DNA of 64,000 nucleotides from Subtercola frigoramans (GTDB taxonomy: Bacteria; Actinomycetota; Actinomycetes; Actinomycetales; Microbacteriaceae): contig NZ_JAFBBU010000001.1 of the NCBI RefSeq assembly GCF_016907385.1, positions 744,001-808,000 of the forward strand. The letters are read 5' to 3'. This document shows positions 3,103 to 40,121 of the stretch, in pieces (position 1 is the first letter of the stretch; the number at the start of each line of letters is the position of its first letter). The translations under genes and the position numbers were made by a program. The notes beneath the pieces were generated by a model, which saw only the letters and a list, made by a program, of their open reading frames with translations, was not told where the DNA came from and ran no database searches.

Positions 3103-4478
3103 GTGACCGGCACCCCGACGCGATACTGGGCACCGAGGTGCTCTTCAGGCAGGCGGTCGCCGCGTCCGTGGAGCTTGTTGCGCAGGGTGCCCTCGACGTA
3201 GTCCGTCTGGTAGGCGCCGCGCTTCTGCAGCTCGGGGATGACAAACTCGACCACGTCTTCGAAAGTGCCGGGGGTGATGGCGTAGGCCAGGTTGAACCCG
3301 TCGACGTCGGTGTCTTCCACCCACTCCTGCAGGTGGTCGGCGACCTCGGTCGGCGAGCCGACGACGAACGGGCCGAGGCCGCCGATCGCGCCGAGCTTGG
3401 CGATGTCGCGCACCTTCCACTCGCTGCCGTCTTCGTTCGCGGCCTGGAAGTTGGCGACGGTTGACTGGATCGCGTTGCTCTTGACATTGCCGATCGGCTC
3501 GTCGAGGTCGTACTGCGAGAGGTCGATGCCCATCCAGCCCGACATGAACACGAGCGCACCCTCTTCACTGGCGTAGCTCAGGTAGTCGGCATGCTTGGCC
3601 TTGGCCTTCTCGGTCGTCTCATCAACGATGATCGTGAGGAGCGTGTAGATCTTCGCGCTGTACCGGTCGCGACCGGCCGCTTCGAGAGCATCACGGATCT
3701 TGCCCACGGTCTCCTTCAGGCCGGCCTTGGTCGATGACGCTACGAAGATCGCCTCCGCGTTGCCCGCAGCGAATTCGATGCCGCGGGGCGAGGCGCCGGC
3801 CTGGTAGATCACCGGTGTGCGCTGGGTCGACGGCTCAGAGAGGTGGATGCCCGGAACGGTGAAGTGCGTGCCGTAGTGCCCGATTTCGTGCACCTTGCTC
3901 GGGTCGGTGAAGACCCCCGACTCGCGGTCGCGGATGACGGCATCGTCTTCCCACGAGCCTTCCCACAGCTTGTAGAGCACCTCGAGGTACTCGTCGGCGA
4001 CGTCGTAGCGCTCGTCGTGCTCGAGCTGGTCGTCGTGACCCATGTTGCGTGCGGCGCTGGGCAGGTACCCCGTCACGACGTTCCAGCCGACGCGGCCGTT
4101 CGTGAGGTGGTCGAGCGTCGACATGCGGCGGGCGAACGGGTACGGATGCTCGTAGGCCGTGCCGGCGGTGATTCCGAACCCGAGGTTCTCGGTGACCGCG
4201 GCCATGGCCGAGACCAGCAGAATGGGGTCGTTGACCGGAACCTGCGCGCCGTGGCGGATGGCGGCCTCATTCGAGCCGCCGTAGACGTCATATGTGCCCA
4301 GCACATCGGCGATGAAGATGCCGTCGAACTTGCCGCGTTCGAGCAGTTTCGCGAGCTCGGTCCAGTAGGAGATCTGCTTGTAGCGCCACGACTGGTCCTG
4401 GGGGTGACGCCACATTCCAGAGGACTGGTGGGCGACGCAGTTCATGTCGAAGGCGTTGAAACGAATCTGTCGGGTCAT
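3099..4478 (-). CDS. NtaA/SnaA/DszA-family FMN-dependent monooxygenase
   Basis: A bacterial-luciferase-fold flavin monooxygenase of 459 aa that oxidises a small organic substrate using FMNH2 supplied by a reductase. Family-typical stretches are FNAFDMNCVAHQSSGMWRHP at the N-terminus, LLERGKFDGIFIADVLG, NPL-like VNDPILLVSAMAAVTENLGF, the motif TLDHLTNGRVGWNVVTGYL, and YQAGASPRGIEFAAGNAEAIF. The start is placed at ATG 4478 because the family begins near here; a GTG at 4526 would add 16 residues and is preceded by a purine-rich tract. It is the first gene of an operon with metN-metI-metQ (4-nt overlap), so the substrate is probably an organosulfur compound. That is inference from context. Confidence 0.88.
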   Translation of the reverse strand: MTRQIRFNAFDMNCVAHQSSGMWRHPQDQSWRYKQISYWTELAKLLERGKFDGIFIADVLGTYDVYGGSNEAAIRHGAQVPVNDPILLVSAMAAVTENLGFGITAGTAYEHPYPFARRMSTLDHLTNGRVGWNVVTGYLPSAARNMGHDDQLEHDERYDVADEYLEVLYKLWEGSWEDDAVIRDRESGVFTDPSKVHEIGHYGTHFTVPGIHLSEPSTQRTPVIYQAGASPRGIEFAAGNAEAIFVASSTKAGLKETVGKIRDALEAAGRDRYSAKIYTLLTIIVDETTEKAKAKHADYLSYASEEGALVFMSGWMGIDLSQYDLDEPIGNVKSNAIQSTVANFQAANEDGSEWKVRDIAKLGAIGGLGPFVVGSPTEVADHLQEWVEDTDVDGFNLAYAITPGTFEDVVEFVIPELQKRGAYQTDYVEGTLRNKLHGRGDRLPEEHLGAQYRVGVPVT

Positions 4479-4642
4479 GAGGCTATAGTGCGCGAGATCC
4501 GCGGGCAGTGCGCGCCGTGCTGCCACAAACCGTCACATTCCCCCCGCGCAGACCGTGCATACGGCCTCGGCAGCGCACGGTTTGCTTCGGTGTCTCGGCT
4601 TAAGCGAGCATCCCTGCCAGCCCTCACGGGACGACGGGAGAA

Positions 4643-4701
4643 CGGGCGGAGCTGGGCCAACATCCCGGGATATCGGGCGGATGTCGGCCCTGCTCCGCCC
4701 G
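4643..4701 (-). terminator. Long inverted repeat, probable terminator
   Basis: Two 21-nt arms (4643-4663, 4681-4701) are complementary except for one mismatch and one G-U pair; the core is GGGCGGAGC with GCTCCGCCC. The loop is 17 nt. It lies 39 nt after the stop of the membrane-protein gene on the minus strand and before the monooxygenase operon, where a terminator is expected. It has no U-tract. The 261-base gap 4479-4739 otherwise shows no gene. Confidence 0.55.
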
Positions 4702-4739
4702 ATCTACCGTGGCCGGCGTGTGGCTCGGGCACAGGGGCG

Positions 4740-5639
4740 TCAGAGGCGGAGGAGCGGGATGCCGGCCAGGGCCTCCCACGTCACGAAGACGAGTGCCGCG
4801 AGGTAGCTACCCATGACGACGCGCATGACGGTGAGTCGCGTGCCCGGGGAACGAAGCGCCCGAACCCGCGTCGACAGCAGTTCGAGGGCCGCTGCGACCA
4901 ACGGGATGATCTGCAGGGCGTGCATCCCGACGAAGTGGGGAATCCGCAGGTCGCCGCCCACCGTGCTCCAGCCGAGCAGAGGCAACCCCGGCCCGCCGTC
5001 TGGCACGCCGACCGTGTGGGCGCCGACAATGCCGTGGTAGTCGGCCAGCTGCGTTGCCGTCGGGCCCGTCATGAGGAACGCGAGCCCCATGCCCACCAGG
5101 GCGATGATCAGACCGGAGCGGATTGCGAGTGTTCGGGCTAGGTCGCCCAGGTCAGTGCGGAACAGCAACACCGCCACGGGGACAGCCGCGCTCCAGACGA
5201 TGACGATCGAGACGGCCATCACTGCCCAGACGGCTGTCTGCAGTGGCGTCGACACGTTGAAATGGCTCGTCGTGTCGGCAGCCGCGGCCGAGACGATGAT
5301 CACGATCTCGATGGCCAGAAAGACGGCCGCCGTCGTGCCTGTCCACCAGGCGACGCGCTGGACCCGCCGCGAACCCCGCACCAATCCGATGAGCCAGGAG
5401 AGGGAGAGGGAGTAGACGAAGACCGACGTCGCGAACTTGAATGGCTTCGCCCAGAGCGGTGCCCCTGTGATGATCCGCGGGTCGGCGAAGATACCGACCA
5501 GAGACCAGACGGCGAGTGCTGCCATCGCCAGCGCTACCACGAGGAGTGGTCGGTGCCAGGTCACGCGGCGCAGCGTCAGGTTCCGGAGTGTGGAGGAGGA
5601 CGAGTCGGTCGCAGAGTGAAGATCAGTCATGGCGGTCAC
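4740..5639 (-). CDS. Polytopic membrane protein of unknown function
   Basis: A 299-aa integral membrane protein with about seven hydrophobic segments (PLLVVALAMAALAVWSLVGI, ATSVFVYSLSLSWLIGLV, AAVFLAIEIVIIVSAAAA, TAVWAVMAVSIVIVWSAAVP, LIIALVGMGLAFLMTGPTA, IPHFVGMHALQIIPLVAAAL, VVMGSYLAALVFVTWEALAG). I do not recognise a named family. The conserved-looking HF-x-GMH and WAKPFKF stretches may be functional. Start GTG 5639 overlaps the merR stop (GTGA) and has GGAAGGA five bases upstream; an internal ATG at 5630 is the alternative. Co-transcribed with the MerR gene, so it is probably the regulator's target. Confidence 0.75.
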   Translation of the reverse strand: MTAMTDLHSATDSSSSTLRNLTLRRVTWHRPLLVVALAMAALAVWSLVGIFADPRIITGAPLWAKPFKFATSVFVYSLSLSWLIGLVRGSRRVQRVAWWTGTTAAVFLAIEIVIIVSAAAADTTSHFNVSTPLQTAVWAVMAVSIVIVWSAAVPVAVLLFRTDLGDLARTLAIRSGLIIALVGMGLAFLMTGPTATQLADYHGIVGAHTVGVPDGGPGLPLLGWSTVGGDLRIPHFVGMHALQIIPLVAAALELLSTRVRALRSPGTRLTVMRVVMGSYLAALVFVTWEALAGIPLLRL

Positions 5640-6259
5640 ACGGTTCCTTCCGGTGAATAGCGTTGATGGGTGACATGTTCCTGGGCGATCCGGCGAAGCG
5701 CCGCAAAGAGCGCATCGCCGAGAACGGTGCCGACGACCACCGTCTCCGCCTGCGATTCGCGCGACTGGCGCGTTTCGATCTCGTCGAGGTCGGCCTCGGC
5801 GGCGAGCAGGGCGGCAGTCTTGTAGCGGGCGAACCAGCCCCGATCATCCCGTTGGCCCACGGCCTCGAAGGTGCTGAGCACCCGGCCGGCAGCCAGACGC
5901 CCGGGATTGGTGGGCTGGTAAGCCCAATCGGAGACAAGAGTGTCGATGCGCTGCAGTGCGGAGGGGTCGAGCTGTTCGGCGTCGAGCGCCTCAGAAACAG
6001 TATTCTGTGCAATCTCGAACGTCTCGGCGAGCGTGGCGTCGGAGTAGATGGAGTCGATGACCCCACGCGCTGAGGCAACGCTCAGCCCGCCGACATCGAG
6101 GAGTGCGCGAATGAGCCGCAATCGGCGAACATGCTCCTCGTCGTAACTCGCCTGGTTGGGGCTGCTCGCGACGCCCGCCTGCAGCAGTCCTTCGCGCAGG
6201 TAGAACTTGATGGTGGCCACGGGCACTTCGGCCAAGGAACTCAACTCCGACATCTTCAT
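5636..6259 (-). CDS. MerR-family transcriptional regulator
   Basis: A 207-aa DNA-binding regulator. The N-terminal winged-helix region fits MerR proteins: MKMSELSSLAEVPVATIKFY, LREGLLQAG, YDEEHVRRLRLIRALLDVGG. MerR proteins remodel promoters with over-long spacers. The C-terminal part (residues about 75-207) is helical and contains no cysteine cluster, so metal sensing is not supported. The effector is unknown. It is translationally coupled to the membrane-protein gene behind it and carries a palindrome directly upstream, consistent with autoregulation. Confidence 0.88.
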   Translation of the reverse strand: MKMSELSSLAEVPVATIKFYLREGLLQAGVASSPNQASYDEEHVRRLRLIRALLDVGGLSVASARGVIDSIYSDATLAETFEIAQNTVSEALDAEQLDPSALQRIDTLVSDWAYQPTNPGRLAAGRVLSTFEAVGQRDDRGWFARYKTAALLAAEADLDEIETRQSRESQAETVVVGTVLGDALFAALRRIAQEHVTHQRYSPEGTV

Positions 6260-6262
6260 AAC

Positions 6263-6285
6263 GGATACTATAACTATCCGATAGT
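6263..6285. promoter_or_regulatory. Candidate MerR operator
   Basis: ACTATC-C-GATAGT (6273-6285) is a perfect interrupted palindrome. It overlaps a second pair, GGATA (6263-6267) with TATCC (6275-6279). It starts 4 nt upstream of the merR ATG in an AT-rich block unlike the surrounding DNA, the expected place for an autoregulatory site. Confidence 0.55.
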
Positions 6286-6380
6286 GTCACTGTCTATAGC
6301 TTCGCGAGACTTTTGTCGGAGATGAGCGCGTCGCCCCCCGATGCGTCGACGTGTTCGCTCTGCTCCGACGAAAGTCCTGT

Positions 6381-7355
6381 CTAGGCGGAGATGTCGGCCA
6401 GGCTCGGCGGGTTCGCACCAGAGCGCGACACGGTGATGGCGGCGCAGTCGATCGCGAAACTGCCGAGACGAGTGAGCGTCTCGGCGGTGAAGGCCGAGCC
6501 GTCGACGAGGGATTCGGCCGTGGTGCCTTCGCCGAGCATCCGGAGCAGCGTGTGGATCGACGCGCTCATGAAGGAGTCGCCCGCGCCGATGGTGTCTGCC
6601 ACGACCACACGCCTGCCGGGCAGGTCGATGGTCGCGAGATCAGAGACGAGCAGGGCACCGGATGCCCCGCGGGTCATGATCGCAAGCGACGGCCCCAGCG
6701 TGAGAATGTGGCCGAGCACCTCGGCGGGTGCCAGTGCAGGGTAGAGCCACTCGGCGTCTTCGTCACTGAGCTTCACCACGGTGGAGAGCGCCATCAGGTC
6801 TTCGGCTGTTGATCGTGCAGCCTCGACGGCGCCGAGGAGGGATGGGCGGATGTTCGGGTCGAACGTGACGATCGTGCCCACGGGCGTTTCGGCGAGGAGG
6901 CGCCGCACGTCTGAGGCGCCCGGGGTGAGGAAGGCGGCGATCGAACCGGTGTGCACGAGTGCGGTTGCGGGCAGTTCTCTGACGAATTCGAGTGACCAGC
7001 GGATGTCGAATTCGTAGGTGGCTGCGCCGGACTCGTCGAGCAGCGCGGTACCTGTCGAGGTCGGCTCGTCGATGATGGAGCCCGGAAAGAAGGCGACGCC
7101 CGAGCCTTCGATGTGCTGCTTCAGTTCGCCCCCGCGCACGTCGCTGCCGATGCGGGTGACCAGCTCGACAGCGTCACCAAGCCGAGCCAGGCCGATGGCG
7201 ACGTTCATGGGGGAGCCGCCGGGATGTTCGGAGACACCGTTCGGACTGATCACGATATCGGTCAGGGCCTCGCCGATCACGATGACCGGCCCGGCCGTTC
7301 TCGCTGGTAGTGCTGGGGCCGCTGGCTGCGCGGCGGAGTCTGATTCAGAGGTCAC
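6381..7355 (-). CDS. PfkB-family sugar kinase (fructokinase-like)
   Basis: ATP-dependent sugar kinase of 324 aa in the ribokinase/PfkB family. The N-terminal substrate motif is seen as GEALTDIV and HPGGSPMNVAIGLARLG. The C-terminal signature DTIGAGDSFMSA carries the catalytic aspartate and anion-hole glycines. FDPNIRPSLL, typical of fructokinase/KDG-kinase members, sits mid-protein. It is the distal gene of the lacI-ABM-pfkB arm, opposite a sugar ABC importer, so it probably phosphorylates the imported sugar. Start is GTG 7355 with AGAAAGGA upstream. The sugar cannot be fixed from sequence; fructose is a reasonable guess. Confidence 0.88.
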   Translation of the reverse strand: MTSESDSAAQPAAPALPARTAGPVIVIGEALTDIVISPNGVSEHPGGSPMNVAIGLARLGDAVELVTRIGSDVRGGELKQHIEGSGVAFFPGSIIDEPTSTGTALLDESGAATYEFDIRWSLEFVRELPATALVHTGSIAAFLTPGASDVRRLLAETPVGTIVTFDPNIRPSLLGAVEAARSTAEDLMALSTVVKLSDEDAEWLYPALAPAEVLGHILTLGPSLAIMTRGASGALLVSDLATIDLPGRRVVVADTIGAGDSFMSASIHTLLRMLGEGTTAESLVDGSAFTAETLTRLGSFAIDCAAITVSRSGANPPSLADISA

Positions 7356-37853: not shown

Positions 37854-38309
37854 TCAGAGTGAGGCAAGGCGGGTGCGGATCTCCGCAGTGACCGACTCCA
37901 GCGCAGAGGTGAATGCCGCGAGCTGACCGGGGTCGAGGTGCGCCGCTGATGCCGAGAGCATCTCGGTGAAGCTTCGATGGATGCCGGCCATCACTTCGTG
38001 ACCAGAGGCAGAGAGCTCGAGGTACAGGCTCCGCCGGTCATCCGGATGATCGACCCGGTGCACAAGCCCGAGGTCGACCAGCCGTCGTGCGATTGCCGTC
38101 ACGGCACCCGTTGTCATGCCCAGGTGCGAAGCAAGGTCTTTGGGAGTCAGGCTCACGGCCTGGGCGATCCTGAACAGCGCACGCAACTCAGTGGCCGAGA
38201 CGCCGGCGTCCCGGGCGATGCGGAGCCGGTTGGCATCGAGGGCACTGACGAAGTCTGTCGCAGCTTTCGGGAATCCGCTCAGCGTGTGGGCGGCCTGCTC
38301 GTCACGCAC
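37854..38309 (-). CDS. MarR-family regulator divergent from the rhodopsin gene
   Basis: A 151-aa winged-helix regulator: VSATELRALFRIAQAVSLTP, KDLASHLGMTTGAVTAIARR, LVDLGLVHRVDHPDDRRSLY with the usual wing, then long dimer helices. Start GTG 38309 is chosen because GGAGG lies 6 nt upstream; a longer start at 38351 is less likely. MarR proteins respond to phenolics, oxidants or other ligands. The shared intergenic region with the rhodopsin contains AT-rich palindromes, so this is probably its repressor. Confidence 0.88.
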   Translation of the reverse strand: MRDEQAAHTLSGFPKAATDFVSALDANRLRIARDAGVSATELRALFRIAQAVSLTPKDLASHLGMTTGAVTAIARRLVDLGLVHRVDHPDDRRSLYLELSASGHEVMAGIHRSFTEMLSASAAHLDPGQLAAFTSALESVTAEIRTRLASL

Positions 38310-38403
38310 ATTGCACCTCCGGCTGGCTGAGGCTGCGAGCGAGCCCGTCACTTCGTCTGTTCTGGTCGCATCATTCTACAGACCCTCCTTCGGAATGCTC
38401 ACA

Positions 38404-38440
38404 AAGTAATTGACTTAATAAGTTACTTATCTTGTAAGGT
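38404..38440. promoter_or_regulatory. Rhodopsin promoter with nested MarR-type palindromes
   Basis: AAGTAA (38404-38409) and TTACTT (38423-38428) form an inverted pair enclosing ACTTA-A-TAAGT (38413-38423). TTGACT (38410-38415) is a good -35. TGTAAG (38433-38438) is a plausible -10 at 17 bp, placing the start of transcription close to the GTG at 38448. The block is far more AT-rich than its surroundings. Confidence 0.65.
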
Positions 38441-38447
38441 ATCTGGT

Positions 38448-39323
38448 GTGCCCCAAAAGAATGTGTTTTCGGGGCGATTCGCCGATTCCGATCTGATGGA
38501 GAACGCCGTGATACCTGACCTCCTCTCGCATGGCCAATACGAGACCGTGTACAACTTCCTCTCGCTTGTGATTGCATCGCAGCTCTTCACGGCGGTGTTC
38601 CTGCTGGTCTCGCTGCCGCGGATCCTGCCTCGCTATCGGCAGGCCATCACGGTCGCAATCATCGTCTGCGGAATCGCTGCGTATCACTACTTCCGCATCT
38701 TCGACTCGTTCAAAGCCGCGTTCGTGACCACCTCGGTCGGTGGCACAGGCGATTACACCCAGGCCGTCGGCCAGGGCTTCAACGAGGGTTACCGGTATGT
38801 CGACTGGCTCCTCACCGTTCCGCTGCTCCTCGTGGAGCTCGTAGCTGTTCTCGCTCTCGCTCGCTCTGTGCAGTCGCGGCTTCTGGCGCGACTGGTGCCC
38901 GCAGCAGCGTTGATGATTGCTCTCGGTTACCCCGGCGAGATCAGCGGCGACAACGGAATTCGCGGCCTGTTCGGGCTCCTGTCGACCATCCCCTTCGTCT
39001 ACATTCTCTATGTCCTGTTCGTGCAGCTCGGAAAGTCGCTCGACAAACAGCCCGCCGGCGTGCGCAAGACCCTGAGCCGGCTCCGCTTTCTCCTTCTGCT
39101 CAGTTGGGGTGTCTACCCGGTCGCCTATCTCCTGCCCCTGCTGAACATCTCGGGGTCTGACGCCTGGGTCTACAAGCAGGTCGGGTACTCCGTGGCAGAC
39201 ATTCTCGCCAAGGCCGTCTACGCCCTGATCATCTTCCACGTGGCGCGCATCAAATCGTTCGACGACGATACTGCCTTCGCTGCCGTCGAACTGTCACCCG
39301 AGGAGGTTCGCGCGGCGAAGTAA
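38448..39323 (+). CDS. Light-driven proton pump rhodopsin (xanthorhodopsin/Gloeobacter type)
   Basis: Seven-helix retinal protein, 291 aa. Helix C RYVDWLLTVPLLLVEL gives Arg116, Asp119 (acceptor), Thr123 and Glu130 (donor), the D-T-E set of outward proton pumps. Leu127 at the spectral-tuning site predicts green absorption. Helix F has W220-x-x-Y223-P224. Helix G DILAK gives Asp251 and Schiff-base Lys255. His80 in helix B matches the counter-ion histidine of proteorhodopsins. Gly176 in LFGLLSTIPF lies at the offset from the acceptor Asp where Gloeobacter rhodopsin has its antenna-fenestration glycine. GTG 38448 is probably leaderless; ATG 38496 is an alternative. No retinal-synthesis gene is nearby. 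Confidence 0.95.
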   Translation: MPQKNVFSGRFADSDLMENAVIPDLLSHGQYETVYNFLSLVIASQLFTAVFLLVSLPRILPRYRQAITVAIIVCGIAAYHYFRIFDSFKAAFVTTSVGGTGDYTQAVGQGFNEGYRYVDWLLTVPLLLVELVAVLALARSVQSRLLARLVPAAALMIALGYPGEISGDNGIRGLFGLLSTIPFVYILYVLFVQLGKSLDKQPAGVRKTLSRLRFLLLLSWGVYPVAYLLPLLNISGSDAWVYKQVGYSVADILAKAVYALIIFHVARIKSFDDDTAFAAVELSPEEVRAAK

Positions 39324-39342
39324 TCGCTGCCCTCACCGGCTG

Positions 39343-39384
39343 AGGCGCTGCCATCACGGTAACCCGTGGTGGCAGCGCCTTTTT
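39343..39384 (+). terminator. Intrinsic terminator of the rhodopsin gene
   Basis: A 17-bp stem (AGGCGCTGCC with GGCAGCGCCT plus an inner CACGG/CCGTG) closes on a TAAC loop and runs into TTTTT. It begins 20 nt after the stop. Confidence 0.92.
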
Positions 39385-39414: not shown

Positions 39415-39990
39415 TCACCAGAAGTCAGGTTCTCCGAACCAGAATTCGAGTTGCGACCACGGCGGCTTTCGATCTTCGCCATAGTCGGTGGGAGGCTCCC
39501 AATCCATGAGGTGGAACTCCGTCAAGAAGTACTTCGCGAGATTCGTGCCATAGAAGATCGTGTCGAGCCCGTGAACAGACAACACCGGCGCACCTCGTTC
39601 GGTGGGTTCGGCGGGCATGTACCGATGCGCGTACAACGGAATCAGAGTCGGCCACGCGTTGATGTGCCTCATCGCAATATCGGCCGCCTCGAACAACGAG
39701 CTTGGCCGCTCGCCCCACGTGCGGCCCCACACGCCATTCTCGACAACGTAGGAAATCACCCAGTCTTTGTGTCGATCGAGCCGAATTCTGATCTCATCGT
39801 CGGAGTCGTGTCGCCAGTCGACCCATCCCTTGCCTAGAGGAAGCACCCTCGACAGCAACTCTCGATGATCAGGGCCGAACAGGAAGCCGAAAGTACCCTC
39901 GATGCGGCGGAATTCAGGTTCTGAAAGGCCGGCTTCCAGCGTAACGCCAACCATGCGCAGCACTTCGATCGCTTCATCGACGATGTCCAC
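39415..39990 (-). CDS. SMI1/KNR4 (SUKH)-like protein
   Basis: A 191-aa protein with SUKH-superfamily features: LSEPEFRRIEGTFGFLFGPD, HRELLSRVLPLGKGWVDWR, PVLSVHGLDTIFYGTNLAKY, FLTEF. SUKH proteins are often immunity proteins of polymorphic toxin systems but also occur singly. No toxin gene is adjacent, so function is open. GTG 39990 is chosen; GTG 40035 would add 15 residues with no ribosome site. It lies directly beside the tRNA cluster. Confidence 0.68.
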   Translation of the reverse strand: MDIVDEAIEVLRMVGVTLEAGLSEPEFRRIEGTFGFLFGPDHRELLSRVLPLGKGWVDWRHDSDDEIRIRLDRHKDWVISYVVENGVWGRTWGERPSSLFEAADIAMRHINAWPTLIPLYAHRYMPAEPTERGAPVLSVHGLDTIFYGTNLAKYFLTEFHLMDWEPPTDYGEDRKPPWSQLEFWFGEPDFW

Positions 39991-40121
39991 GGATCCCACT
40001 ATTCGACACGTTTCGGATGGCTTCAGGCTACCCACAAGTAACTTGCGTGGCTCTAGGATTTGTGTTCTCGGCGCAAGAACTGGGGGTTAAGGGTCAAAAC
40101 CGCGCGTCGAGAAAAGGGTAC

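Follow-up and report, generated by a model that had tools for sequence, protein, structure and literature searches.

The rhodopsin locus of Subtercola frigoramans raises the question of how a light-driven pump gene is controlled where no retinal gene stands beside it, and what part is played by the regulator gene that does. The window considered here, i.e. the whole stretch of 64,000 nucleotides that was analysed, comprises bases 744001–808000 of a one-contig genome of 3,679,597 bases that is 98.09% complete. On its plus strand lies a gene for a xanthorhodopsin-like proton-pump rhodopsin (38508–39323; 271 amino acids, GTG start), preceded by a Shine–Dalgarno-like GGAG on the same strand (38498–38501), and on the minus strand a gene for a MarR-family regulator (37854–38309; 151 amino acids, GTG start). 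Both genes are real and, as the first-pass annotation of this DNA had it, they diverge across a palindrome, which is imperfect and AT-rich (25 nt, 38404–38428, 9 of 12 pairs, no strand assigned). Its statement that no retinal genes adjoin the pair also holds for the five neighbouring ORFs that were tested against profiles, four of which could be named and one of which gave no match. Downstream of the rhodopsin gene, an 18-bp hairpin followed by a T run (39342–39381, plus strand) forms a likely intrinsic terminator, with an RNA fold of −40.8 kcal/mol against a shuffle mean of −19.9 (z −7.7), and the rhodopsin gene is therefore probably monocistronic in the window; a consensus promoter and terminator scan, which was uninformative, did not list this hairpin. 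A 206-amino-acid ORF beside the rhodopsin gene (39418–40035, minus strand) has no Pfam match.

The rhodopsin matches the Bac_rhodopsin profile PF01036 at 134.6 bits (cut-off 24.6) and is the only PF01036 match in the S. frigoramans genome; no NCBIfam model matched it. Its start had been placed at 38448, which is 60 nt too early judging by the 5' ends of homologues. At the position of GTG 38508 a start codon is found in 85 of 86 homologous rows, the remaining row being cut by a contig end; a 4-base Shine–Dalgarno-like match precedes the start in 82 of the 86, and 45 have an in-frame stop within 20 codons upstream, although some of these rows repeat one gene. With the start at GTG 38508, residue numbers taken from the 38448 ORF drop by 20, and the residues discussed below become D99, T103, E110, D231, K235 and Gly156 of the 271-residue protein.

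In the older numbering, D119/T123/E130, D251, K255 and G176 do align with D121/T125/E132, D253, K257 and G178 of Gloeobacter rhodopsin (GR), and alignment confirms that the offsets from the acceptor Asp to the Gly (57) and to the Lys (136) equal those of GR. Among 80 relatives found by rhodopsin similarity, D119, T123 and E130 are kept in all, and D251 and K255 in 79, the exception being a truncated locus. The six best solved-structure chains match at 5e-81 to 9e-58; 9hfk, named only Bacteriorhodopsin in the structure-search result, is the best (5e-81), GR (6nwd) follows at 5e-74, and xanthorhodopsin (3ddl) and Kin4B8 (7ytb) are also among the six. The complete motif and these matches bear out the proton-pump assignment as far as sequence can, and outward proton pumping is the expected function of what is in itself an ordinary pump. 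Identity to 18 more distant Microbacteriaceae rhodopsins is 52–59%. Further rhodopsins, 26–31% identical to that of the window and possibly cryorhodopsins, are common in genomes of the genus (L093–L106). Two observations concern the collection of loci itself: in Lacisediminihabitans changchengi G11-30 identical rhodopsin/MarR matches occur at two places (L033 and L034), through recent duplication or as an assembly artefact, and five loci that carry the window's rhodopsin type (L023, L032, L042, L063 and L065) come from records labelled Acidobacteria, Planococcus or Bifidobacterium breve, where either the label or the bin looks doubtful.

The regulator scores 54.5 bits with PF01047 (cut-off 24.6) and 54.7 bits with PF12802, no NCBIfam equivalog being above cut-off. 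A longer in-frame ORF reaches 38351, where the gene had been started at first; GTG 38309 is the likelier start, given the GGAGG six bases upstream and the lengths of homologues, which are mostly 150–160 amino acids (database entry P0001 has 151, as in the window). The nearest named MarR is that of Subtercola sp. PAMC28395 (87%), and matches to solved structures are weak, the best being E. coli MarR at 4e-8.

The pairing of the two genes extends well beyond this genome. Among the loci of the 80 relatives, 37 have a divergent MarR gene within 600 nt of the rhodopsin gene. In two of the 80 (L053 and L065) the upstream DNA, 18 and 210 nt, is too short to show one; both were entered as having none in the tree test and both fall outside the MarR clade. 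A quick tree was built from 95 distinct rhodopsins, to which 110 loci had been collapsed (stop signs in rhodopsin rows being written as X); on it the MarR label requires 4 changes, compared with 31.7 in shuffles, none of 500 being as low. A divergent MarR stands beside 44 of the 50 rhodopsins of one clade, which spans several actinobacterial families, with Arthrobacter, Pseudarthrobacter, Nesterenkonia and Ornithinimicrobium as well as Microbacteriaceae. No replacement regulator recurs among the ORFs upstream of the six clade members without a linked MarR; in S. vilae this place is taken by a gene that looks Fur-like by eye. Nine genomes were searched for the regulator through their loci, and in the seven with a linked copy that copy is the best MarR match; the best match is 38% in a Clavibacter genome with a MarR-less rhodopsin, and that of Arthrobacter Bz4 has none at 1e-8. 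Distances between MarR proteins and between rhodopsins correlate (r 0.53, 0 of 1000 permutations as high), a moderate correlation that shared ancestry alone could explain. Mutual exclusion of MarR and Blh was considered and rejected: both occur in 5 of the 80 loci, and a co-directional rhodopsin–crtY–blh set stands behind a divergent MarR in three S. boreus loci (L005–L007; in L005 it spans 4001–7290) and in L023.

So conserved a pairing might also be read as direct light signalling, in which the rhodopsin itself binds the regulator, and a precedent exists in GR and the ArsR-like GvTcR (PMC11217422). GvTcR is placed among the ArsR-type regulators, and it was a similarity search that led to it, not gene neighbourhood; the window sequence gives no hint of an interface, and we regard this reading as highly improbable.

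The palindromic promoter reported at first pass is present between the two genes; by itself it does not exceed chance, since 9 of 12 pairs are common in the window. Altogether 74 of its 25-mers, 38404–38428 included, reach or pass this level, and the palindrome was rejected as significant alone with 73 others as palindromic. What lifts it above chance is its conservation in MarR-linked promoters. An EM search for palindromes in 38 such promoters (reduced from 42 by leaving out the repeats L034, L090, L091 and L092) gave the motif TaAcTTAnTnAnTAAgTtA with a log-likelihood of 261, against 31–35 in four shuffled sets, from 80 random starts for the real promoters and 25 for the shuffled sets. Scored on these training promoters, 37 of the 38 reach at least 9.9, whereas the highest score is 8.5 among 43 control rows from rhodopsins without MarR (in which L018 and L089 are one gene) and 7.2 among 160 background pieces. 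The L032 promoter scores 3.6, below several controls. MarR-less kin inside the MarR clade (L009, L018, L022, L025 and L029) score from −12.3 to −1.5.

In a held-out test over 28 similarity groups and 8 folds, with letter shuffles of each promoter as the null, the 19-bp palindromic motif was recovered in 42 of 44 promoters at p≤0.05 and in 34 at p≤0.01, the two that missed it being L121 (p 0.052) and L032 (p 0.24). The predicted MarR operator in the window that follows from the motif and the held-out test is TAATTGACTTAATAAGTTA (38407–38425, no strand assigned, 6 of 9 palindromic pairs), its centre lying 92 nt away from the start of the rhodopsin gene and 107 nt from that of the MarR gene. The exact frame is approximate, the best held-out site in the window being an overlapping register 4 nt downstream. 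Thus a predicted palindromic operator of the 16–20 bp size of the MarR family lies between the divergent genes, and it encloses a −35-like TTGACT (38410–38415); the consensus promoter scan found no acceptable −10 box and 0 promoter-like sites. In the 3.68 Mb genome the motif pattern has one perfect match, the rhodopsin–MarR site, with the qualification that the pattern was written from the motif, so that weaker sites would be missed. A site with two mismatches (C1:2458618), flanked by what look by eye to be a dehydrogenase-like gene and another MarR-like gene, is at chance level because a backward control pattern gives one match per strand. The idea of a private MarR acting on the palindrome is thus upheld, as a prediction, by footprinting across promoters, co-inheritance and the single perfect genomic match.

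Repression by MarR proteins commonly works through a palindrome over the promoter, which the protein occupies until it binds a ligand and leaves. The locus is probably, and we hold this with good confidence, a two-gene light-energy module of this kind, in which a MarR on the palindrome would repress the rhodopsin pump, a ligand or condition would lift the repression and retinal would come from elsewhere; the most likely role of the MarR is that of a dedicated repressor acting on a phototrophy gene. A dimer of the MarR (gene 38309–37854) would bind the palindromic site at about 38407–38425, midway between the two start codons and over the −35-like hexamer, and would there repress the rhodopsin promoter and probably its own as well. 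Once a small ligand or condition lifts repression, the rhodopsin would be made and, with all-trans retinal, would pump protons outward in the light, K235 carrying the Schiff base, D99 acting as acceptor, E110 as donor and D231 as counterion partner. The retinal of S. frigoramans would be supplied from outside or by an enzyme not yet known. DNA binding, repression, pumping and retinal supply are the parts of this proposal that we infer.

Looking for crt and blh genes elsewhere in the genome, as suggested at first pass, gave a divided answer: a crt cluster of C50 type was seen, and a Blh profile search was without match. The genome's one phytoene-synthase match lies about 2.7 Mb from the MarR and rhodopsin genes in contig coordinates, a distance that would shrink to about 0.95 Mb were the contig a closed circle. 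The cluster around it also holds GGPP-synthase-like and crtI-family genes (the latter 524 bits, cut-off 238), as well as matches to a lycopene-cyclase domain (47.8, cut-off 39.4) and to a prenyltransferase (477, cut-off 217). The cluster is read as C50 type, the names crtE, crtEb, crtYe/f and idi being assigned from matches and sequence. The Blh search (PF15461), empty in S. frigoramans, was positive in three of 12 genus genomes; the RPE65-type dioxygenase search (PF03055), likewise without match in the S. frigoramans genome, was positive in two genomes as a control. No full-length CrtY was found in the S. frigoramans genome, most-of-profile matches occurring in the genomes G002–G004 alone, and its PF05834 matches were rejected as CrtY, as they cover at most profile positions 1–48. 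The Blh query from a genus genome is 100% identical to the copy of S. boreus P27979, and the rhodopsin loci of three genus genomes match those of S. boreus strains. With neither crtY nor blh found, the cell would depend on external retinal or on an enzyme that has yet to be recognised; S. frigoramans is a probable retinal auxotroph or user of another route, and the absence of Blh by profile search does not exclude another cleavage enzyme.

Rhodopsins at E≤1e-60 occur in 41 of 299 Microbacteriaceae genomes, 23 of them of the window type (at least 73% identity), and among these 23 a Blh match is present in 13 and absent in 10, though drafts are among the ten (G226, for one, is 82% complete; G000, which is S. 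frigoramans, G008 and G154 are single-contig). Eight of the ten Blh-less genomes have a linked MarR (G000, G008, G245, G285, G246, G131, G154 and G226). An opsin in a genome with no known retinal gene found could conceivably serve mainly in a light-independent way without retinal, e.g. as a phospholipid scramblase, and an actinorhodopsin has been reported to scramble lipids without retinal (PMC12805836). We consider this very unlikely as the main role, as all the pump and retinal-site residues tested are kept in the window rhodopsin and the blh-less Aurantimicrobium minutum is reported to contain retinal, by a route not known, and to pump (PMC7734400).

As to the signal, the first-pass annotation suggested ligand- or stress-controlled phototrophy. 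Thiol-redox MarR proteins of the OhrR type have a conserved sensing Cys. Sensing through a conserved thiol is unlikely here, any Cys at all being found in only 7 of 44 orthologues and at scattered positions.

Another possibility is that the regulator is a CrtR-like sensor of isoprenoids, viz. geranylgeranyl pyrophosphate (GGPP), recruited from carotenoid control. CrtR, which is conserved in Actinobacteria, is described as a divergently encoded MarR protein that represses carotenoid genes and has GGPP as the molecule it senses, and the same papers report light-inducible carotenogenesis (PMC7432914, PMC5401885, PMC6739363). The window's site contains a near-central TTAA, the core that CrtR needs, but only one other of the 44 orthologous sites does, that of G008. 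CrtR-type genes mostly, though not always, adjoin crt genes (PMC5401885); the window MarR adjoins rhodopsin and not the distant crt cluster, no MarR match falls inside the S. frigoramans crt region, and no MarR locus examined adjoins crtE, crtB or idi. The evidence is mixed, and a recruited CrtR appears unlikely.

Isoprenoids, retinoids and unrelated compounds are all candidates for the MarR ligand. The co-directional rhodopsin–crtY–blh sets behind MarR in S. boreus and L023 suggest a signal that bears on the entire light-harvesting set. A more speculative proposal, distinctly unlikely as matters stand, is that the MarR senses the chromophore and comes off the operator in the presence of retinal, a retinoid or some other carotenoid fragment. 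Were this true, opsin synthesis would wait until the protein can be completed, which would answer retinal auxotrophy by regulation; in the relatives with crtY–blh the same protein would give feed-forward control of the whole light-harvesting set.

The repressor–pump reading of the locus leaves aside whether the pump also carries a light-harvesting carotenoid. Such an antenna, with a native carotenoid docked at the Gly156 fenestration and passing its excitation to retinal, had been put forward on the strength of the offsets shared with GR. These were rejected as antenna evidence: the Asp-to-Gly offset is 57 in the window protein and GR, 59 in Kin4B8 and 60 in xanthorhodopsin, and Kin4B8 and xanthorhodopsin are themselves antenna pumps that bind carotenoids (PMC13093654). 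Equality with GR thus signifies no indel and nothing more. A bulky side chain blocking the fenestration was looked for, and alignment places Gly at the site, opposite Gly156 of xanthorhodopsin, Gly178 of GR and Gly153 of Kin4B8. Thr180, Phe183, Pro224 and Tyr227 (38448-start numbering) are also in place, the pairwise alignments showing the equivalents of T182/T157, F185, P226 and Y204 as kept, and an actinobacterial rhodopsin, ActR-13023, has been reconstituted with native carotenoid (PMC8113403). Against this, the Gly is found in 76 of the 80 relatives and is hence not diagnostic, and some clade members have Phe at the site. In pairwise alignments the window rhodopsin has Leu opposite GR T179, which is among the helix-E residues where mutations influenced canthaxanthin binding (PMC9151804), and Leu/Leu opposite Ser208/Tyr209 of Kin4B8. 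The carotenoid cluster found is of C50 type, with no full-length CrtY match in the genome, and in ActR-13023 pumping started faster with the carotenoid, but the total pH change did not rise (PMC8113403). The label 'antenna-type' is unjustified given the clade-wide Gly, the Leu contact residues and the C50-type cluster; on its sequence the window rhodopsin may possibly have an antenna, although we lean towards doubting it. Among the 80 loci Phe replaces the fenestration Gly only in L020 (Ornithinimicrobium), L030, L031 and L037 (Nesterenkonia), which would represent a natural loss of the antenna opening inside the MarR-linked clade.

A search of the open-licence PMC literature found no description of a MarR–rhodopsin pair. 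The genome paper of Subtercola vilae reports a xanthorhodopsin, with no mention of MarR in the part of the text drawn on here (PMC6518244), and PMC8875376 mentions rhodopsin and MarR, but apart, in the portion consulted. The rhodopsin–cyclase–oxygenase gene order is already in print, and the new part would be the pair of a MarR and its predicted operator with rhodopsin. Where blh-less bacteria obtain retinal, and why their opsin genes persist, is treated as an open question in several sources (PMC7734400, PMC12422013, PMC12805836), and the clade described here offers a matched set, in which close relatives with and without crtY–blh have the same rhodopsin/MarR-promoter arrangement. With the opsin promoter as the one perfect genomic match, the inducer of this MarR would show which signal the cell uses for phototrophy.

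Compared with known systems, the window protein shares with GR, xanthorhodopsin and Kin4B8 the DTE pump motif, the helix-G Asp and Lys and the fenestration Gly, and differs in standing on an actinobacterial branch. Likened from the papers on it, CrtR of Corynebacterium glutamicum is similar in being an actinobacterial MarR repressor that stands divergent to a pigment-related target; the target in the window is instead rhodopsin, and TTAA is absent from the other 42 of the 44 orthologous sites. Marisediminicola antarctica has a MarR beside its C50 carotenoid cluster and, elsewhere, a xanthorhodopsin–lycopene cyclase–carotene oxygenase cluster (PMC6669644), which has the gene order of the S. boreus loci; the S. 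frigoramans genome, unlike it, has no match to a full-length cyclase or oxygenase. In this respect S. frigoramans is closer to the Blh-less Aurantimicrobium minutum, Rhodoluna and Aquiluna, which, as far as the sources describe them, likewise combine a pump gene and C50-type carotenoid genes with no blh, and blh is reported to be missing from most Luna-1 genomes (PMC12422013). Unlike these three, the window has a conserved pair of MarR and predicted operator, and, in contrast to other Blh-less bacteria, its close relatives keep the crtY–blh set behind the same MarR arrangement.
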